DNA of 38,982 nucleotides from Erysipelothrix sp. (GTDB lineage Bacteria > Bacillota_I > Bacilli_A > Erysipelotrichales > Erysipelotrichaceae). Under the pieces are notes generated by a model. It saw only the letters and a program-made list of their open reading frames with translations. It searched no databases and was not told where the DNA came from. This document shows, one piece after another, positions 880-25,406 of the stretch (within the stretch, counting starts at the first letter, position 1; every line of letters starts with the position of its first letter). The translations under genes were made by a program, and so were the position numbers. The stretch is taken from positions 1 to 38,982 of the forward strand of contig DUUI01000056.1 of assembly GCA_012841625.1 (NCBI GenBank), written 5' to 3'.

Positions 880-885
880 AAATCA

Positions 886-917
886 ATTATACACCAAATC
901 ATACTTTCTGATATAAT
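886..917. promoter_or_regulatory. Divergent promoter pair with start-proximal -10 boxes
   Basis: Minus strand: TATAAT at 891-886, then six bases, then the ATG at 879 of the 149-aa gene. Plus strand: TGATATAAT (extended -10, hexamer at 912-917), then seven bases, then the ATG of mutY at 925. Neither has a good -35 at 17 bases, and each promoter's upstream region overlaps the other's -10. Transcription should begin at or within a base or two of each ATG. Confidence 0.6.
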
Positions 918-924
918 CTAAGAC

Positions 925-7287: not shown

Positions 7288-8215
7288 CCATAATATTTAA
7301 TACTCGTAATGATTCGCTATGCGTCATGGATTTAACTTTTAACTGATCGTTTTCAATCGCATCCACTGTTTCATAGACTTCATATTCATACCCTGTAATA
7401 TAATCGAAATTAATCTCTTCTAATACTTCATGTCCACTGTCCTTAACAATTGCTTTTTCCACTTTAGGAATGCCGTGCAGTTCAATTAAGCCATTTTCAT
7501 ACGATAAAGTACTAATATCACTCATAATAGATCCAATCGAGGACTGTAAGGTTGCTAGCATGCCATCAGTAAATTCTAATAAAATAACAACACTTTGGTC
7601 AACTCCTAACTCAGTATCTTTTGAGAGTGCTTTGATAGAGGTGACCTGTGTATCATTAAACATACAAGCCACTGTTATTGGATAGATTCCTACATCAAGT
7701 AAAGATCCTCCGGCTAGATTTGGATTGACCATCCTATCCACATCTTGTTTTTGAATGCCTAGAGATGCATGAACATTTAACAGTTTGCCAAGATTATGCT
7801 TAATCGGAAGTTCTTTGACAGTTTTTACAAATGGCATATAGCGAGGCCACGTTGCATCCACTAATAATGTTTCATTTTCATGTGCAATTATTAAAAGTTC
7901 TTCTAATTCTTTGGCATTAACACAAATTGGTTTTTCGCATAAGACTGAAATCTTGTTTTCCAAGAAATATTTACTCTGCGGAAAATGCGCAGTATGAGGT
8001 GTGCCGATATAGGCTAAATCTGTTTGATTGTCGTAAACAACATCTTCTAAGGATGTAAAGACTTTTTCTATCTTGTATTTTTGAGCAAACTCAGCACCTG
8101 TTTCTGCTTTTCGACTTACAACGCCGTATAAAATAATATCATCTGGTAACTGATTGATTGTTATGGCCATTTCCTTACTAATTTCGCCTGTCCCAATAAG
8201 TGTTACCCTAATCAT
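7235..8215 (-). CDS. Gfo/Idh/MocA family NAD(P)-dependent oxidoreductase
   Basis: 326 residues. The N-terminal Rossmann fold has VTLIGTGEISKEMA (residues 4-17) as dinucleotide loop, and CEKPICVNAKE carries the family EKP motif near residue 94. GGSLLDVGIYPI (about 169-180) begins the C-terminal substrate domain, with the conserved Asp and Tyr region. Such enzymes act on sugars, inositol, biliverdin or dihydrodiols. The substrate here cannot be told from sequence. The ATG overlaps the stop of the glyoxalase-like gene by four bases (ATGA), so translation is coupled. Confidence 0.9.
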   Translation of the reverse strand: MIRVTLIGTGEISKEMAITINQLPDDIILYGVVSRKAETGAEFAQKYKIEKVFTSLEDVVYDNQTDLAYIGTPHTAHFPQSKYFLENKISVLCEKPICVNAKELEELLIIAHENETLLVDATWPRYMPFVKTVKELPIKHNLGKLLNVHASLGIQKQDVDRMVNPNLAGGSLLDVGIYPITVACMFNDTQVTSIKALSKDTELGVDQSVVILLEFTDGMLATLQSSIGSIMSDISTLSYENGLIELHGIPKVEKAIVKDSGHEVLEEINFDYITGYEYEVYETVDAIENDQLKVKSMTHSESLRVLNIMDEVRRQIDLQYPFEKEV

Positions 8216-8577
8216 TTAGATGGGGTAATTTCTATCCAGTACCCATCTGGATCCTCTATAAAATATAATCCCATTTTTGGATTTTCATAACAAATAACAC
8301 CTAGGTCTTTATGAAACTTGTAGGCTGCAGGATAGTCATCAACCTCAAAGCATAAATGCGTTTCATTTTCTCCTAATTCATAGGGAGAATCAACATGATC
8401 ATTTAAATATGTTAACTCTATTTCGAAATCACCGACTTCATCTTTTAAAAACGTAATTGTGAAATCATCGTAAATACCCTGTTTCTTGACACTCATATTG
8501 AGTGCTTTTTCATAAAAATCAATTGACCTCTGTAAATCTTGGACATTGATATTCATGTGAACCATTTTAAACTTCAT
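8212..8577 (-). CDS. VOC-family protein, glyoxalase I (GloA)-like
   Basis: 121 residues from ATG 8577, chosen because AAAGGA lies seven bases upstream. The frame also extends to 8631, but that extension sits inside the preceding gene. It is a single vicinal-oxygen-chelate fold with the four metal-ligand positions of glyoxalase I: His in MVHMNINV, Glu in IELTYL, His in ETHLCFEV and Glu in WIEITP. This fits lactoylglutathione lyase or a related methylglyoxal-detoxifying enzyme. Low-GC Gram-positives often lack glutathione, so the thiol partner is uncertain. It lies between a membrane-protein gene and an oxidoreductase gene in the tex operon. Confidence 0.87.
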   Translation of the reverse strand: MKFKMVHMNINVQDLQRSIDFYEKALNMSVKKQGIYDDFTITFLKDEVGDFEIELTYLNDHVDSPYELGENETHLCFEVDDYPAAYKFHKDLGVICYENPKMGLYFIEDPDGYWIEITPSK

Positions 8578-8578
8578 A

Positions 8579-9268
8579 TTATCCTTCTTTCTTTTTTGTT
8601 TTGGTATAAAACTGGATAATGATAAAAACAATATAGATTACACTTATTATTATATATTCAATGACTGAAAAAGTATTGTATAGTGAATATTCAAATAAAA
8701 GTTGATGAACAATAAAAGTTAGCCCGATAAAATTGATGATGTTTTTTCGAGAATATACTGAATACAAAAGAATAAAGCCAGTTAAAATGGCTAAACTTGA
8801 AAGTAAATTATTAAACCAATTTTTACTAACTAGAAAATACATTAAACCATTATAAGTAATCAGGATAAATGGAATACTAAGTTTCAATGATCCGACAGCC
8901 TTAATTCGATCTAATCCTAATTTTACTCGAGGCAGTGACCAAGATGAGATCATTAATAATATAATATAATTGAGTGATAATAATAACGTTAGATATGACA
9001 AACCTTCATGTCTATTTTGTAATGATAAACTAAACAAAAAGTAGAAGAGTGAAAATCTAAGCCCTATTGTTATTGATTCCATTTTAACTTGTGACCCATA
9101 CCACAAGAGAACAGTAAAACTATGGAATAGTAAAACAATCCACTGCCATAGTTTAATTTCGACAATATAATTAACTAACAGTAAAAGACCAATGACGAGT
9201 GCCCAAGCAATAGTTCTTTTTAGCCAGTTATATTCTTTTAAGACTCTTTTACCCTTATTAAAAAACAT
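8579..9268 (-). CDS. Hypothetical polytopic membrane protein (229 aa)
   Basis: About seven to eight hydrophobic segments spread through the protein, with a basic N-terminus (MFFNKGKRVLKEY) and a basic C-terminal tail (YTKTKKKEG). I recognise no family motif. The ATG shares bases with the tex stop codon (TAATG), with AAGGA seven bases upstream, so translation is coupled to tex. It ends one base before the glyoxalase-like gene starts. Confidence 0.75.
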   Translation of the reverse strand: MFFNKGKRVLKEYNWLKRTIAWALVIGLLLLVNYIVEIKLWQWIVLLFHSFTVLLWYGSQVKMESITIGLRFSLFYFLFSLSLQNRHEGLSYLTLLLSLNYIILLMISSWSLPRVKLGLDRIKAVGSLKLSIPFILITYNGLMYFLVSKNWFNNLLSSLAILTGFILLYSVYSRKNIINFIGLTFIVHQLLFEYSLYNTFSVIEYIIISVIYIVFIIIQFYTKTKKKEG

Positions 9269-11433
9269 TAGACATCCTTCATAGTTAGTGAAATACGTTT
9301 CTTTTGGACATCCACTTCTAAGACTCTTACTTTCACGACTTGTCCGACTTGAACAACTTGCGTTGGATCTGAGATAAAGCGATTAGCTAATTGTGAGATA
9401 TGAACTAAGCCATCTTGATGAACACCTAAATCAACAAAGGCACCAAAGGCTGTCACATTTCGTATGACACCTGTTAAAACTTGATTTGGCTTTAAATCTT
9501 CTATACTCATTACTTCACGGATTAAAACTGGCGACGGGAAATCATCTCTAATGTCTCGTGCTGGGGTTGAAATCGCATCAACTATATCGGTTAATGTTTC
9601 ATAACCCACCTCATGAGTTTTTCCAAACTCTAATAAGTCTTTTTCGTTTACTTTATTTGGGTGATTAAATTTGAGGTTAAAGCTTTTAATCAGTGTTTTG
9701 GCTATCTTATAAGACTCTGGATGAACAAAGGTATTATCTAATTGTTCTTTAGGATTTTCAATACGCAAGAAACCAGCACATTGTTCAAATGCTTTTGCGC
9801 CTAATTGTTTAACTTTTTTAAGCTCATTTCGGCTTATAAACTGACCATTCTGTTCTCTATAATTGACGATATTACTAGCAATTGTTTTGTTGACTCCTGA
9901 AACATATGACAGTAATGATGGTGATGCAGTATTTAATGACACACCTATTTGGTTAACGACAGATTCAACGACACCCCCTAATAAAGTATCGAGTCGCTTT
10001 TGATTCATATCATGTTGATATTGCCCGACCCCGATTGATTTTGGATCAATTTTGACTAATTCAGCCAATGGATCTTGAACACGTCTGGCTAATGACACAG
10101 CACTTCTTAAATTTAATTCTAATTGAGGAAGTTCTATGCTTGAGATTGGGGAAGCGGAGTAAACAGATGCTCCTGATTCATCAACCATTAAATATGGAAC
10201 ATCTAGCTTATTTTCCTTTAGAACATCATTTAAGAATAGCTCAGTTTCGCGGCTTGCGGTTCCATTTCCTAAGACTATTAATTCAACATTTTGTTCTTTG
10301 ATGACTCTTATAACAGTATCTTTTGCTGTTTGTAATCGATTCTCAAATAAGATTGGAAAAATTAATCCTGCATCTAATACTTTTCCTGACTCATCAACAA
10401 TCGCCCATTTACAACCATTTCGATACCCTGGATCTAGGGCTAAAACGACCTTTGTTTTCATTGGAGGTACTAATAAAGCATTTCTTAAATTAACTGAGAA
10501 TAAATTGAGTGCTTCTTCATGGGCTTTAAGAGTTAAATCGTTTCTAAGTTCATTTTCAATTGAAGGTCTAATTAAACGTTTAAATGCATCATCAATAACT
10601 TCCATTAATAATTTATCAGCGAGTGATTCTTGTTTATTACATTTAAAATATGAGACTAAATGACGTTCCCATAAATGGTCGTCAAGTTCAATTGAGACTC
10701 TTAAAACATCTTGTGCTTCACCTCTGTTGATGGCTAAAACTCTGTGATTAGCCATCTTATTATATGGTTCACTATAGTTGTAATATAGTCTAAAGACAGT
10801 GTCTTCTTCAACTTTTGAAACAGTCTTAATTAATCCATGTTTACTGTATTCACGTTTTAGAGCATTTCGAATGTCAGCATTATCTGAGACTTCTTGGGCT
10901 AATATATCTTTTGCTCCTAAAAAGACATCTTCGATTGTTTCTAGTTTTTTTAGATTTTCAATTTCAGGTTGGTTCTCAAAATACTCTTTGGCTGATTGAT
11001 TAATATCACTATCACTTGCCTTGTCTTTAATCATATCAGCTAAAAACTGCAGACCTCGCTTGATGGCGACCCCGGCTCGGGTTTGGCGTTTTGGTCGATA
11101 TGGACGATATAAATCTTCTAATTCGCTTAAGGTTGTCGCTTTATTAATCTTTTCTTCTAGTTCTGAATCACTAATTTCTAAATCGTTTAATGTATTAAAA
11201 ATAGTAATACGTCGCTCTTGGACATTTACTTTTTGTTTGTAGTCATCTTCAATTTTTCGTAATTGTTCATCATCCATTGAACCAATTTGTTCCTTACGAT
11301 AACGAGCAATAAATGGTATTGTATTTCCTTCCTGTAGTAAATCTAAAAAGTTATTAATATGTTTTGCGCTTAGTGATAAATCACTCGCAATGTCTAATGC
11401 ATAGTCCGGTGTTTTTTTCTCTATAATTTTCAT
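9268..11433 (-). CDS. tex: Tex, S1-domain RNA-binding transcription accessory protein
   Basis: 721 residues from ATG 11433. Tex is a nucleic-acid-binding protein linked to transcription and toxin-gene expression. Seen: N-terminal Tex domain with IPFIARYRKEQIGSMDDEQLR, the YqgF/RNase H-like core (LALDPGYRNGCKWAIVD), helix-hairpin-helix repeats (near LLSYVSGVNKTIASNIV), and a C-terminal S1 domain (GVIRNVTAFGAFVDLGVHQD). The length is typical. A frame-open TTG lies at 11448, but TATAAT at 11445-11440 sits six bases before ATG 11433 and there is no ribosome binding site, so the mRNA is probably leaderless. It is the first gene of a five-gene operon ending in hflX. Confidence 0.95.
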   Translation of the reverse strand: MKIIEKKTPDYALDIASDLSLSAKHINNFLDLLQEGNTIPFIARYRKEQIGSMDDEQLRKIEDDYKQKVNVQERRITIFNTLNDLEISDSELEEKINKATTLSELEDLYRPYRPKRQTRAGVAIKRGLQFLADMIKDKASDSDINQSAKEYFENQPEIENLKKLETIEDVFLGAKDILAQEVSDNADIRNALKREYSKHGLIKTVSKVEEDTVFRLYYNYSEPYNKMANHRVLAINRGEAQDVLRVSIELDDHLWERHLVSYFKCNKQESLADKLLMEVIDDAFKRLIRPSIENELRNDLTLKAHEEALNLFSVNLRNALLVPPMKTKVVLALDPGYRNGCKWAIVDESGKVLDAGLIFPILFENRLQTAKDTVIRVIKEQNVELIVLGNGTASRETELFLNDVLKENKLDVPYLMVDESGASVYSASPISSIELPQLELNLRSAVSLARRVQDPLAELVKIDPKSIGVGQYQHDMNQKRLDTLLGGVVESVVNQIGVSLNTASPSLLSYVSGVNKTIASNIVNYREQNGQFISRNELKKVKQLGAKAFEQCAGFLRIENPKEQLDNTFVHPESYKIAKTLIKSFNLKFNHPNKVNEKDLLEFGKTHEVGYETLTDIVDAISTPARDIRDDFPSPVLIREVMSIEDLKPNQVLTGVIRNVTAFGAFVDLGVHQDGLVHISQLANRFISDPTQVVQVGQVVKVRVLEVDVQKKRISLTMKDV

Positions 11434-11439
11434 GAGTTT

Positions 11440-11445
11440 ATTATA
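11440..11445 (-). promoter_or_regulatory. -10 box of the tex operon (leaderless candidate)
   Basis: Minus strand TTGTATAAT, then AAACTC, then ATG. No Shine-Dalgarno sequence fits between the box and the start. The -35 region is weak. Confidence 0.55.
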
Positions 11446-14308: not shown

Positions 14309-14314
14309 TATAAT
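14309..14314 (+). promoter_or_regulatory. -10 box of licT (leaderless candidate)
   Basis: AGTGTATAAT, then TAAAAT, then ATG at 14321. There are six bases between the hexamer and the start codon and no ribosome binding site. Confidence 0.55.
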
Positions 14315-14320
14315 TAAAAT

Positions 14321-15163
14321 ATGTTTCAAACCTATAAAATTAAGAAAATCTTAAACAACAATGTGGTCTTAGCGACTCGAGGGTTTGAAGAAGTTGTTGT
14401 CGTTGGTTTAGGCTTAGGACATAATTTAAAGCCCAAGGATGTTATTCCACAAAATATGATTGAAAAAGTCTTTGAGCTAAAGCGCGAGGACTTTTACAAG
14501 ATGCTTAGTCTGGCTCAAGAAATTGATGAAGATACTTTTAATATAGCCTATTATATTATTAAGCGTAATGAACAAATATTTGGTATGCCTTTGGATAATC
14601 ATGCTTATTTAGTTTTGATTGATCACATTAACTTTGCGATTGAGCGACATCAATCAGGCCAAGAAATCCAAAACTTATTAATAGAAGATTTACGTTTAAT
14701 GTATCCAGAAGAATTAAAAATGGCGACTGGAATCCTTCATGATGTTAATGGTACCTTTAAAGTTAATTTGCCTGAAGATGAGGCAGGTTTTCTGGTTATG
14801 CATATAATTAATGGTGTTAATCCAGATTTAGAGAATAAGTCTGCGCTCATGACTGATCTTGTTCTTGATTCATTAAATGTTATTAGAGATTTCTATTTAG
14901 TCTCTTTAAAACCTGAAGAATTATCGACTCAAAGAATCATGGTGCATATCAAATTATTGGTTCAGAGAATAATAACTGGCACGCAAGTTGACTTTAAGGA
15001 ACGGGTTCTTTATAATGTATTTGAGGATTTCCCGAAAGCGTATACATGCGCTTCGAGTGTCCAAAAATTTATCGAAGAGCGTTTAAAAGAAAAAATCAAT
15101 CAACAAGAAATGGTATATTTAACCATTCATCTCAATCGACTTGAGATGGTTCAAGGATTGTAA
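14321..15163 (+). CDS. licT: BglG/LicT-family transcriptional antiterminator of the trehalose operon
   Basis: 280 residues. RNA-binding CAT domain (1-~55, KIKKILNNNVVLA), PRD1 (~65-170) and PRD2 (~175-280). All four regulatory histidines are present: H102 in LIDHINFAIER, H161 in GFLVMHI, H209 in HIKLLVQR and H270 in TIHLNRL. Such proteins bind a RAT hairpin and stop terminator formation when the cognate sugar permease is busy. A RAT-like element overlaps this gene's own stop codon, directly before treP and treC, so its target is almost certainly the trehalose PTS. That is unusual, because these operons are commonly controlled by the GntR-type TreR. The start is probably leaderless. Confidence 0.93.
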   Translation: MFQTYKIKKILNNNVVLATRGFEEVVVVGLGLGHNLKPKDVIPQNMIEKVFELKREDFYKMLSLAQEIDEDTFNIAYYIIKRNEQIFGMPLDNHAYLVLIDHINFAIERHQSGQEIQNLLIEDLRLMYPEELKMATGILHDVNGTFKVNLPEDEAGFLVMHIINGVNPDLENKSALMTDLVLDSLNVIRDFYLVSLKPEELSTQRIMVHIKLLVQRIITGTQVDFKERVLYNVFEDFPKAYTCASSVQKFIEERLKEKINQQEMVYLTIHLNRLEMVQGL

Positions 15164-21087: not shown

Positions 21088-21959
21088 TTATTCAATGACT
21101 CATAAAATTCTTTCGCAACATCTGTGTATTCTTGACTTTCAACATCGACTTTCGCATTTAGTTCAATTACTTTTTTTGTATCCAGTTGAGCTGAAATATA
21201 GTTTAGAATACTCTCAATTTCAGGATGTCTATCTAAAACTTCGCTATGAATAATTGGTGTTAAATGGTATGGTGGCCACACTTGTTTATCATCAACCATC
21301 ACTGTATAATCTGGGCTAATTAATGGCCCTTCAGTTGTATAGGCTGGGGCTGCATCTGCTTCATTAGCATCTAAGATATCATATTTAAGGGCATTGCTAT
21401 AGATAGTTGAAGACTTCCAATTAAATGGCCCATAAACTTCTTCCAAAGCTGGTAAAGCATCTTGGCGAACATCAAATTCACCTTGAGAAGCAAAGCGAAT
21501 TTCATGAGCATGTTCCTGCAAATCTGATAAAGTGACTATCCCAAACTGCTGAGCGATATCACTTCTTAAAACAATACCTTGTCCATCATTTGCTGTGGAC
21601 ATCTCTAACCATACGATATCAAATTCGTCCAAATAGCCTTGCTTAACGACATCATAAACTTCTTGAGGATCTGTAATTAAATCCCTCTTCAAATGAACTA
21701 GTAAACCTGTTCCAGTGTATTCAGGATATAGATCAATTTCATCGTTTATCATGGATGTGTGGATTAATGAACCAGCAATGTTGAATGTCCTTTCAACTTC
21801 AAAGCCATTCTCTTCTAATGCTAAAGCATAAAGTTCAGCTACAATATTACTCTCGGCAAATGATTTTGATCCAATACGGATAAGATTGTTTTCAGCACTT
21901 GGGGCTGAGCTACAAGCAGTTATTAATAGAACTAATAATATAACAATATATTTTTTCAT
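21084..21959 (-). CDS. opuCC: Osmoprotectant-binding lipoprotein (OpuCC-like)
   Basis: 291 residues. Lipoprotein signal with lipobox LITAC (Cys16) after a short hydrophobic stretch. The mature part is a two-lobed OpuAC/OpuCC-type binding protein: IRIGSKSFAESNIVAELYA near the start, DLYPEYTGTGLLVHL near residue 77, and several tyrosines in the binding cleft. Likely ligands are choline, glycine betaine or carnitine. Specificity cannot be read from the sequence. It sits between the first permease and the ATPase with four-base overlaps. Confidence 0.9.
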   Translation of the reverse strand: MKKYIVILLVLLITACSSAPSAENNLIRIGSKSFAESNIVAELYALALEENGFEVERTFNIAGSLIHTSMINDEIDLYPEYTGTGLLVHLKRDLITDPQEVYDVVKQGYLDEFDIVWLEMSTANDGQGIVLRSDIAQQFGIVTLSDLQEHAHEIRFASQGEFDVRQDALPALEEVYGPFNWKSSTIYSNALKYDILDANEADAAPAYTTEGPLISPDYTVMVDDKQVWPPYHLTPIIHSEVLDRHPEIESILNYISAQLDTKKVIELNAKVDVESQEYTDVAKEFYESLNK

Positions 21960-22582
21960 CGTAATTTCCTCCCTATCAATAGATATTGTAAAAACGATAT
22001 AAATAACCCACCTAAGATGGATAAGACTGCGACAAGTAAACCACCAGTTAATAACATCTCTTGTCGATTAAGATTAAGTCCTGTAAAGATGATATTCCCT
22101 AATCCCCCACCACCAATATAGGTTGCTAGAGTGGCAGAAGCAATAATTTGAACAAAGCTACTTGCAACTCCAGTAAAGATGGCTGGTAATGCTAAAGGTA
22201 TCTGAACTTTTTTTAATAATTGATCTTGACTTAAGCCCATACCTTGACCACTTTCCAAATATTGAGGATTAATATTAGTAAAACCATCAATTGTATTTAG
22301 GATGACTGGAACAATGCCAATCATCACTAAAGCGGTCACAGAAGGAATAATACCTGTCTTTAATAGTGGCAACATTAATAATAGTAGAGCTAAGCTTGGA
22401 ATTACTTTTAGTGTATTAAATACACCCAAAACTGCAGTTCCTATCTTAGGACGCTTATAAACAAAGTAACCAATAAGAACACCTAAAAGTGTACAAATCG
22501 CTAAAGCGAGTACACTCAGATAAAGATGTTCAGTAATTCCTTTGATAATAACTGATGTGTTACTTCTAATATAGTTAAGCAT
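21956..22582 (-). CDS. opuCB: Osmoprotectant ABC transporter permease (OpuCB-like)
   Basis: 208 residues, about six helices, with the permease loop LESGQGMGLSQDQLLKKVQIPLA (residues ~109-131). It is the first gene of the four-gene operon in the order permease, binding protein, ATPase, permease. The better known opuC order starts with the ATPase. The start has no ribosome binding site. TAGAAT lies six bases before ATG in the context GTGTAGAAT, matching the other leaderless candidates in this window. Confidence 0.88.
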   Translation of the reverse strand: MLNYIRSNTSVIIKGITEHLYLSVLALAICTLLGVLIGYFVYKRPKIGTAVLGVFNTLKVIPSLALLLLMLPLLKTGIIPSVTALVMIGIVPVILNTIDGFTNINPQYLESGQGMGLSQDQLLKKVQIPLALPAIFTGVASSFVQIIASATLATYIGGGGLGNIIFTGLNLNRQEMLLTGGLLVAVLSILGGLFISFLQYLLIGRKLR

Positions 22583-22588
22583 ACTATT

Positions 22589-22594
22589 ATTCTA
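22589..22594 (-). promoter_or_regulatory. -10 box of the opuC operon (leaderless candidate)
   Basis: Minus strand GGTGTAGAAT, then AATAGT, then ATG at 22582. The same GTGTA(T/G)AAT-N6-ATG layout is seen before licT and before the 149-aa membrane protein. Confidence 0.5.
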
Positions 22595-22603
22595 CACCAT
22601 CTA

Positions 22604-23520
22604 ACAACAAGATGCTTTAATGGTACTTGTTTAATATTTCGGATTTAATAGTCTCGCCGTGACCTTAGTAGGAGTATGAGACATAAACAAAAGACTTGTG
22701 TTTTGTTCTTTTTCTGCTGCGACTAAACCCCTAGTGTAAACATCATTATCAATTTTAAGAAAATTCGATTCTAATGTAACCAATTTAACAAGATTTGGTC
22801 ATTTTAAACTGATGATTTTGAGTCTTTAGGTTACATTTTCACGCTTTCTTGACAATAAATGGACCTAACCACTAAAAACCCTTCTGTTTATTGGGAATTT
22901 GAAATCAATGTTTTTGGTGACTTTAGATTGCCTTGACTTTAGTCAAGAATCACGTAGACAAAAAAGTTTTACTGAAGATGCGAATCATGATGCTAACGCA
23001 ATGAACAAGACAAAAATGTACAAGCCCGCTTGGGTTGCTGGTCGAAGTGAATAAATTGAGCATCATGGTCAAGAGAAACTTAAAGCAAAAAAATACGATT
23101 AATATCGTAAAATTTAGGAGTATTATTTTTGTGTTTCTTGACTCTGTATAGAGTGAGACAGGTAAATGGGGTGCATGTAGTACAAGAGATAATGAATTGT
23201 AGAAACTTGCGCCCGACCTTTTTCAAAGCTAGACCATCAATCAAACTTTGCTTTCTTTTGTCATTGTCCTTGTCTTTTTTTTCTATCCTAACCCCCCTAT
23301 TCTTTTATCGCTTTCCCCTGCCAAACTATCATCACTCACATCTGTCCCTCGCTTTTGAACTCTCGCCCTGTTCATATAAAATACATCCTAGTATTTTGTT
23401 TGATGTCAATAGCTTATATGGCGAGGGATTTAATTACTGTTACTTACGAGAAATATCAGGTTCTTCATGAACTAAAAACATACGAAAACAACTTTATTTA
23501 ATCATCACTTATGTTATTAT
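22604..23520. other. Intergenic region with many inverted repeats, no convincing gene
   Basis: Roughly 0.9 kb without a credible coding region. It holds many paired segments: GTCTC/GAGAC with an AACAAAA/TTTTGTT hairpin (about 22650-22710), AATGTAACC/GGTTACATT (22773-22837), CTTGACT-TT-AGTCAAG (22932-22947), CATGATGCT/AGCATCATG (22986-23067), TACGAT-TAAT-ATCGTA (23094-23109) and TCCCTCGC/GCGAGGGA (23345-23428). A pyrimidine-rich tract covers about 23262-23330. An open frame at 23129-23470 has no ribosome binding site and unnatural composition, so I do not call it. The region may be decayed foreign DNA, structured RNA or both. Confidence 0.5.
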
Positions 23521-23526
23521 TATACT
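23498..23526 (+). promoter_or_regulatory. Promoter for the bacteriocin-like locus
   Basis: TTAATC (23498-23503), 17 bases, TATACT (23521-23526). Transcription from here would give a leader of about 190 bases before the ATG at 23725. Confidence 0.45.
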
Positions 23527-23538
23527 AACATGTAACAA

Positions 23539-23621
23539 ACGATTAATTACTCATTGGAGTTAAGATCCATTGAAAACTATGACAGGAGTAATGCATATGA
23601 GTAATCCTTGGAATTAATCGT
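23539..23621 (+). promoter_or_regulatory. Leader hairpin containing a mini-ORF
   Basis: The left arm ACGATTAATTACTCAT (23539-23554) pairs with ATGAGTAAT (23597-23605) and AATTAATCGT (23612-23621), sharing the central AATT. The right arm holds a tiny reading frame, MSNPWN (23597-23617), with AGGAG eight bases before its ATG. The layout recalls leader-peptide attenuation, but no terminator is evident behind it, so the role is unknown. Confidence 0.4.
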
Positions 23622-23724
23622 CGATTAGTTTGAAACGATAATACTAACTGTCCAGTTGAAGAAATACAAAACATGTATAACCTGGGATATCAAAACAAAA
23701 ACAAAAATAGAAAGGAATAATCTT

Positions 23725-24308
23725 ATGAAAAAGATTAAGCTATTTTTACTTTTATTATCTTGTTTTGCTTTACTAACAGGATTTACACCCATCCCAATTC
23801 ATGCAAATCAAACTCTGATTATTACAGAGAAAAACATTCATGAACTTGATGAATTCGTAATTGTTAAAGATAATCAATTTGTTTTAGAACTACCAAGGAG
23901 TATTGTAATAAATACAGAATTAAGGAATTCTATAGAACTGTCAATTAAAAAACAAACGATTTTATAATTAAGAATGACTACGTAATTAATCCAGTAACAA
24001 AGATGGCCAAACCATTAGTTCAAATAAAGGCGTATGGAGTTAATAGTATCGGTCTACATTGGAATTATATTCAAATTAAAATGGATGCTGGTTTAGTTTG
24101 AACTATTTTGAGTACAGCTGCAGCAGGAGCATTGGCAGCATTTCGAGCACTAGTTGCATGGCTTGCCGCTAATCCAATAACTGGAGTTATCGCCGTTGCT
24201 GTAGTAACTTCTATTATAAATTCGTTGATAAGCGAAGGTATTAAAGATGGTGTTGAAATACACTACAATTATTTTTACTTCACTGTTACTTTTATTGGAA
24301 GACAGTGA
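23725..24308 (+). pseudogene. Secreted bacteriocin-like protein gene, broken by a frameshift and an in-frame TGA
   Basis: A signal peptide (MKKIKLFLLLLSCFALLTG, cleavage near IHA-NQT) leads into TLIITEKNIHELDEFVIVKD. The frame stops at 23967, but restoring one A to the A6 run at 23947-23952 joins it to IKKTNDFIIKNDYVINP and on to KAYGVNSIGLHWNYIQIKMDAGLV. A TGA follows at 24099-24101, then STAAAGALAAFRALVAWLAA and a C-terminus DGVEIHYNYFYFTVTFIGRQ. The repaired product is 194 residues: signal, polar region, hydrophobic glycine/alanine-rich helix, aromatic tail. I recall similar secreted Bacillota proteins of unknown role beside small membrane proteins, and a bacteriocin role is inference. The ribosome binding site AAAGGAATA is intact. 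Confidence 0.7.
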
Positions 24309-24328
24309 TTAAAACAAAAGGAGTTCTC

Positions 24329-24511
24329 ATGAAAAAAAATGTGTTTCTAATGATTTTATTTACTTGCTTTTTTGTGATCTTCTCATATGAACTATCCATA
24401 AAAGGCATTGATTTTAACAATTCGTTAGATTTAATTTACTTATTATTATCTATAATATCTCTTATAATTGTTTTAGGATTTATTATTGATTTTAAAAATA
24501 AAAAAAACTAA
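24329..24511 (+). CDS. Small two-helix membrane protein, possible immunity partner
   Basis: 60 residues: a first hydrophobic segment (about residues 5-20), a short polar loop (ELSIKGIDFNNS), a second hydrophobic segment (35-53), and a basic tail FKNKKN. The ribosome binding site AAAGGAG lies seven bases before ATG. It starts 20 bases after the broken secreted-protein gene and shares its terminator, so it was probably the second gene of that unit. Size and topology fit small immunity proteins of bacteriocin loci. No family motif is recognised. Confidence 0.6.
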   Translation: MKKNVFLMILFTCFFVIFSYELSIKGIDFNNSLDLIYLLLSIISLIIVLGFIIDFKNKKN

Positions 24512-24584
24512 TTATTCTTATCAAAAGAAAAGAATTATTAATAATGGAGTTATCAAACAAAAGGAGACAGAGTTAAAAAACTAG

Positions 24585-24625
24585 AAACCCTTATCCATTT
24601 TATATTGGATAGGGGTTTTATAATT
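24585..24625 (+). terminator. Terminator of the bacteriocin-like locus
   Basis: AAACCCTTATCCA, loop TTTTATAT, TGGATAGGGGTTT with one T-G wobble, then TTATAATTT. The stem has 13 pairs. An AAAGGAG sequence just before it has no start codon after it and looks like a remnant. Confidence 0.85.
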
Positions 24626-24900: not shown

Positions 24901-24974
24901 TGGAGCGGATGAGGGGAATCGAACCCCCGTAGTCAGCTTGGAAGGCTGAAGTTCTACCATTGAACTACATCCGC
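24901..24974 (-). tRNA. tRNA-Gly (TCC)
   Basis: Cloverleaf begins GCGGATGTAG. Anticodon loop CTTCCAA gives TCC. T-loop GGTTCGATTCC, with encoded CCA end. Last gene of the six-tRNA operon. Confidence 0.95.
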
Positions 24975-24979
24975 AATAA

Positions 24980-25055
24980 TGGTGACTCGTGCAGGAATCG
25001 AACCTGCGACCCACTGATTAAAAGTCAGTTGCTCTACCGACTGAGCTAACGAGTC
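24980..25055 (-). tRNA. tRNA-Lys (TTT)
   Basis: Begins GACTCGTTAGCTCAG. Anticodon loop CTTTTAA gives TTT. T-loop GGTTCGATTCC, with encoded CCA. Confidence 0.96.
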
Positions 25056-25059
25056 ATAA

Positions 25060-25134
25060 TGGCTGGGGCACCTGGAATCGAACCAGGGAATGTCAGAGTC
25101 AAAGTCTGATGCCTTACCGCTTGGCTATGCCCCA
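25060..25134 (-). tRNA. tRNA-Gln (TTG)
   Basis: Begins TGGGGCATAGCCAAG, the usual tRNA-Gln start. Anticodon loop CTTTGAC gives TTG. T-loop GGTTCGATTCC, with encoded CCA. Confidence 0.95.
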
Positions 25135-25141
25135 ACAAGAA

Positions 25142-25226
25142 TGGTGGGGAGAGACGGATTCGAACCGCCGAACTCGTAGAGAGTTGAGTTACAGTCAACC
25201 GCGTTTAGCCACTTCGCTATCTCCCC
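25142..25226 (-). tRNA. tRNA-Tyr (GTA)
   Basis: 85 bases with a long variable arm, as expected for bacterial tRNA-Tyr. Begins GGGGAGATAGCGAAG. Anticodon loop CTGTAAC gives GTA. T-loop GGTTCGAATCC, with encoded CCA. Confidence 0.96.
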
Positions 25227-25243
25227 ATACCCATAAATAAAAA

Positions 25244-25319
25244 TGGTGCCGACTATAGGACTTGAACCCACAACCTACTGATTACAAATCAGTTGCTCTA
25301 CCAATTGAGCTAAGTCGGC
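25244..25319 (-). tRNA. tRNA-Thr (TGT)
   Basis: Begins GCCGACTTAGCTCAA. Anticodon loop TTTGTAA gives TGT. T-loop GGTTCAAGTCC, with encoded CCA. Confidence 0.95.
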
Positions 25320-25330
25320 AAATAAATCAA

Positions 25331-25406
25331 TGGTGGAGGTTAACGGACTTGAACCGCTGACCCTCTGCTTGTAAGGCAGATGCTCTCCCAACTGAGCTAA
25401 ACCTCC
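25331..25406 (-). tRNA. tRNA-Val (TAC)
   Basis: Begins GGAGGTTTAGCTCAG. Anticodon loop CTTACAA gives TAC. T-loop GGTTCAAGTCC, with encoded CCA. First gene of the operon Val-Thr-Tyr-Gln-Lys-Gly. Confidence 0.95.

Follow-up and report, generated by a model that had tools for sequence, protein, structure and literature searches.

Predicted leaderless mRNAs from extended -10 promoters as a minority class in an Erysipelothrix genome

The 38,982-nt stretch of Erysipelothrix sp. DNA analyzed here (the window) contains five gene starts at which a first-pass annotation had noted a -10 hexamer six or seven nucleotides before the ATG and no Shine-Dalgarno sequence. The question raised by these starts is whether they belong to leaderless mRNAs, to mRNAs with a very short or an ordinary leader, or to no class at all. 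Direct reading of the window confirmed the hexamer and its spacing at all five starts, exactly as claimed (TATAAT-N6/N7, or TAGAAT-N6), and the claimed lack of a Shine-Dalgarno sequence was likewise borne out, an AGGAGG-type site being absent at all five (Table 1). The putative promoter sequence is GTGTATAAT at both the 149-aa gene and licT, GTGTAGAAT at opuCB and TTGTATAAT at tex. The full-length relatives of the tex protein align with it from residue 1, and so do the relatives of the mutY protein.

Table 1. Coordinates of the five starts in the window, with their putative -10 elements and genes
Feature	Position	Strand	Remarks
149-aa gene, predicted leaderless	430-879	minus	Without family match; "membrane protein" is the label of the first-pass annotation
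TATAAT -10 hexamer, 149-aa gene	886-891	minus	N6 to ATG 877-879; GTG directly before hexamer
Intergenic region, 149-aa gene/mutY	880-924		45 bp, divergent; both predicted promoters face to face
TATAAT -10 hexamer, mutY	912-917	plus	N7 to ATG 925; extended -10 TGA at 909-911
mutY, A/G-specific adenine glycosylase, predicted leaderless	925-1914	plus	NCBIfam TIGR01084 equivalog above cut-off
tex-like gene, predicted leaderless	9268-11433	minus	721 aa, C-terminal S1 domain
TATAAT -10 hexamer, tex	11440-11445	minus	N6 to ATG 11431-11433
TATAAT -10 hexamer, licT	14309-14314	plus	N6 to ATG 14321
LicT/GlcT-type (BglG family) antiterminator gene, predicted leaderless	14321-15163	plus	
Betaine/choline-type ABC permease gene (opuCB), predicted leaderless	21956-22582	minus	Heads four-gene operon
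TAGAAT -10-like hexamer, opuCB	22589-22594	minus	N6 to ATG 22580-22582; weakest of the five, one mismatch

Elsewhere in the window, about 2 kb (22631-24600) lack a confidently called gene; the ORFs there are all short, and two of them, at 23129-23470 and 23656-23967, match no Pfam family. The region possibly carries decayed or small secreted-peptide genes. Six tRNA genes (Val, Thr, Tyr, Gln, Lys and Gly) are clustered on the minus strand at 24901-25406.

The frequency of the layout at gene starts was assessed using a gene caller written for this analysis, which relies on coding potential and is blind to upstream sequence, the start codons being assigned by a simple caller. The window was sampled together with 390 kb taken from other contigs, which amounts to about 31% of the genome (the assembly comprises 85 contigs and is 97% complete), and expected numbers were derived from dinucleotide shuffles. 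At spacings of 0 to 11 nt before the 361 ATG starts, window included, exact TATAAT was found 0, 1, 0, 0, 0, 0, 9, 3, 2, 0, 0 and 0 times, respectively. Outside the window it occurs 6-8 nt before 10 of the 332 called ATG starts, compared to 1.34 expected (sd 1.07, maximum 4; Poisson p 1.5e-6). Under a relaxed criterion the numbers are 22 of 332 and 8.5 expected (Poisson p 8e-5), such that an estimated third of the relaxed candidates are chance hits. Of the 29 ATG starts called within the window, 4 have exact TATAAT 6-8 nt upstream (0.11 expected), and relaxed candidates are more frequent than elsewhere (6/29 vs 22/332, p 0.017), the window having been picked for the feature. At least one of the six, a glyoxalase-like ORF at 8212-8556, looks miscalled, since its domain match begins upstream of the start. 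With the window counted in, the surplus over the chance expectation comes to about 19 of the 361 ATG starts, which puts the class at about 5% of ATG starts.

A count over the whole genome gave 65 occurrences of TATAAT-N6-ATG, compared to 31 per spacing at N9-12 (p 2.7e-6), an excess whose size varies with the background spacing chosen; the N9-12 spacings served as the control because a reversed-pattern control is confounded by promoter richness. The genome-wide excess, which the first-pass annotation had proposed as its own check, was thus observed both for the pattern as such and at called starts. A blind count of TATAAT-N6-ATG over the whole window, with one mismatch allowed, gave no excess (21 found vs 31.8 expected) because coding DNA dominates; the TATAAT-ATG signal is visible only when tied to real gene starts.

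Examination of the 28 candidates reveals TGn before the hexamer in 14, compared to 10% of the plus-strand TATAAT occurrences in the sample (p 1.5e-6), together with a -35 region about as poor as background; to judge from the sequence, this is the extended -10 pattern. In the survey by Zheng et al. (PMC3160421), a strong TG peak is reported for Lactococcus, where it is suggested to replace the -35 element. TG lies directly adjacent to the hexamer in only 5 of the 28. The sequence GTGTA(T/G)AAT, which the first-pass annotation had taken to be common to three starts, is indeed spelled as described at the 149-aa gene, licT and opuCB, but it is not a shared motif, TGn-TATAAT being commoner, and GTGTATAAT is ruled out on the same counts as a distinct motif of the genome. 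In the window, mutY has TGA-TATAAT and the other four starts have GTG or TTG directly before the hexamer, which is a local variant. The candidates are enriched at divergent starts (16/81 vs 12/280, p 3e-5) and have mixed functions with no obvious theme (response regulator, thymidylate kinase, TruB, LytB, NUDIX, sortase, MatE and others). A search with the primary sigma factor gave a single match in the genome. After the start codon, the candidates are somewhat richer in A than the Shine-Dalgarno genes (fraction 0.49 vs 0.44), and the downstream fold showed no clear difference between the two groups.

The two modes of initiation which the first-pass annotation had suspected do appear to coexist, with a predicted leaderless set beside a Shine-Dalgarno majority. 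Shine-Dalgarno (GGAGG-type) sites precede 58% of the ATG starts in the sample outside the window, and all 22 relaxed candidates from that sample fall among the 140 starts without such a site. The 16S rRNA gene, sought for its anti-Shine-Dalgarno tail, was not found in the assembly.

The best explanation, which we consider very probable on the strength of these sequence patterns, is a minority class of leaderless mRNAs transcribed from extended -10 promoters. The housekeeping sigma factor would recognize these promoters, often of the form TGn-TATAAT and without a good -35 element, and transcription would begin at the A of the ATG or no more than about a base away from it. In Mesoplasma florum, 6 or 7 nt separate the -10 box from the mapped transcription starts, some of which are on start codons (PMC7745072); this distance would place +1 on the A of the ATG here. 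The resulting mRNAs would carry a 5'-terminal AUG with no room for a Shine-Dalgarno site. Judging from the leaderless mRNAs studied so far, they would probably be started by 70S ribosomes recognizing the 5' AUG, a mode of entry reviewed in PMC9031893; most other genes would have ordinary Shine-Dalgarno leaders. A second promoter further upstream could also yield a leadered mRNA from some of the candidate genes.

The layout was also compared in relatives. In a congener (G001), identity to the counterparts here is 55% for mutY and 27% for the small divergent partner gene; the gap between them is 46 bp, with TATACT-N7-ATG for mutY and TATAAT-N6-ATG for the partner (L102, 2306-2351). The mutY genes of G009 and G013 also have TATAAT-N6-ATG, and in several further genera of the family the hexamer lies at 6-7 nt with one mismatch; in those genera the start codon is less certain. 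A homologue-like divergent ORF (MENYFSS...) adjoins mutY in G009, where the partner gene seems leadered. The divergent arrangement of mutY and the 149-aa gene is thus conserved, with 45-46 bp between the two starts; the two predicted promoters therefore overlap and might be mutually exclusive. Of the 12 sister-family genomes displayed, 10 (L112, L117, L120, L121, L123-L127 and L130) show TATAAT-N6/7-GGTGAT-N3/4-ATG at mutY; the leader predicted there would be about 9-10 nt long, with the Shine-Dalgarno sequence itself at its 5' end.

Conservation of the layout at orthologous starts, found for mutY and the 149-aa gene, does not extend to tex in the two nearest relatives: tex is predicted to be leaderless here and in Neofamilia massiliensis (TATAAT-N7), and leadered in G001 and G009. 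The tex protein is 59-62% identical to those of G001, G009 and N. massiliensis, a member of the Clostridia, and only 42-46% identical to those of other members of its own family. The primary sigma factor of Neofamilia is no closer than those of other Clostridia, and in view of this discrepancy horizontal transfer of tex appears likely.

Could the pattern have arisen otherwise? TATAAT-like hexamers may lie near some ATGs by chance in AT-rich DNA, and five such cases picked by eye, in a window selected by the reader and without excess in the blind count, would fit that account. The gene-level excess outside the window, the spacing-specific excess genome-wide and the conserved layout at mutY and its partner nevertheless make chance improbable and already disfavoured for the class; among the five starts, opuCB is its likeliest case. 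Slightly less improbable, but still unlikely, is that the -10 elements are real and that transcription starts a few bases downstream, or translation at a later start codon, giving a very short leader rather than none. The spike at exactly 6 nt argues against such a leader, as does the alignment of the mutY and tex relatives from residue 1, even though spacings of 7 to 8 also occur and a leader of about 9-10 nt, starting with GGTGAT, is predicted for mutY in the sister family.

We regard as least probable of all that the mRNA is leadered and that the AT-rich stretch before the ATG serves in translation, as a signal related to S1 or to structure, and not as a promoter. An AT bias at -20 to -10 can stem from a Pribnow box but also from S1 binding (Nakagawa 2017, PMC5397173), but the spelling, fixed spacing and TGn extension seen here are those of a promoter. 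Moreover, the starts of the 149-aa gene and mutY are only 45 bp apart, and a long leader would therefore begin at or inside the neighbouring gene.

The distribution of the predicted leaderless class was followed by counting TATAAT-N6-ATG in related genomes. Within the family, a Bonferroni-significant N6 excess was found in 7 of 36 genomes, the strongest in G018 (65 vs 11, 5.9-fold) and G015 (50 vs 12.5, 4.0-fold), compared to 2.1-fold in the genome under study. None of the 24 genomes of the sister family has a significant excess (totals of 2572 vs 2631 expected). The gene-level sample of G018 agrees (8 vs 1.4) and that of G011 points in the same direction (6 vs 2.0), and the samples of G007, G037, Clostridium sp. 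MD294 and Neofamilia show no excess; G050 and G024 were left out of this comparison, having few called genes. Across the order, mutY is predicted to be leaderless in part of the family and to have the 9-10 nt GGTGAT mini-leader in the sister family. The class may have expanded in some genera of one Bacillota family, the sister family showing no overall excess, with the mutY promoter kept beside the start order-wide; we offer this as a tentative and rather doubtful scenario, which, if true, would suggest that certain genes are under selection for an initiation that is leaderless or nearly so. To us, the most interesting outcome is the excess restricted to certain clades, together with the very short predicted 5' ends of mutY across the order. 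The excess and the mutY comparison provide concrete cases for studying gene shifts between leaderless and leadered starts. In practice, starts of this kind may be misplaced by gene finders that depend on Shine-Dalgarno sites.

The first-pass annotation considered such layouts less expected in Bacillota, a view which the literature does not support. In the survey by Zheng et al. (2011, PMC3160421), leaderless genes are reported in 56 of 209 Firmicutes genomes, with a mean of 4.2% and a concentration in Lactobacillales and Mycoplasma. Documented cases include Lactococcus, Streptococcus, Oenococcus-Leuconostoc and Mycoplasma (PMC6431027 and PMC3160421), and mapped transcription starts in streptococci gave 8.6-9% leaderless mRNAs (PMC6431027).

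The Firmicutes "TA-led" genes of that survey resemble the present candidates in the position of TAtAAT, about 12 bp before the start codon, in their minority share and, in low-GC genomes, in a TG peak before the hexamer; both sets are predictions, and the lineage studied here is not named in the passages considered. Like the streptococci, of whose mRNAs about 9% are leaderless, this low-GC genome combines a minority (here a predicted one) of leaderless mRNAs with a leadered majority, and leaderless status is conserved between species, but the streptococcal data come from dRNA-seq (PMC6431027), whereas ours are predicted from sequence. In Actinobacteria and Deinococcus, the -10 hexamer is likewise placed such that the mRNA begins at the start codon, although group averages there are about 20-40% (PMC3160421), compared to about 5% here. 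The phenomenon is therefore already known in Bacillota, and the present analysis contributes a further lineage in which a predicted leaderless class is well supported, together with its distribution.
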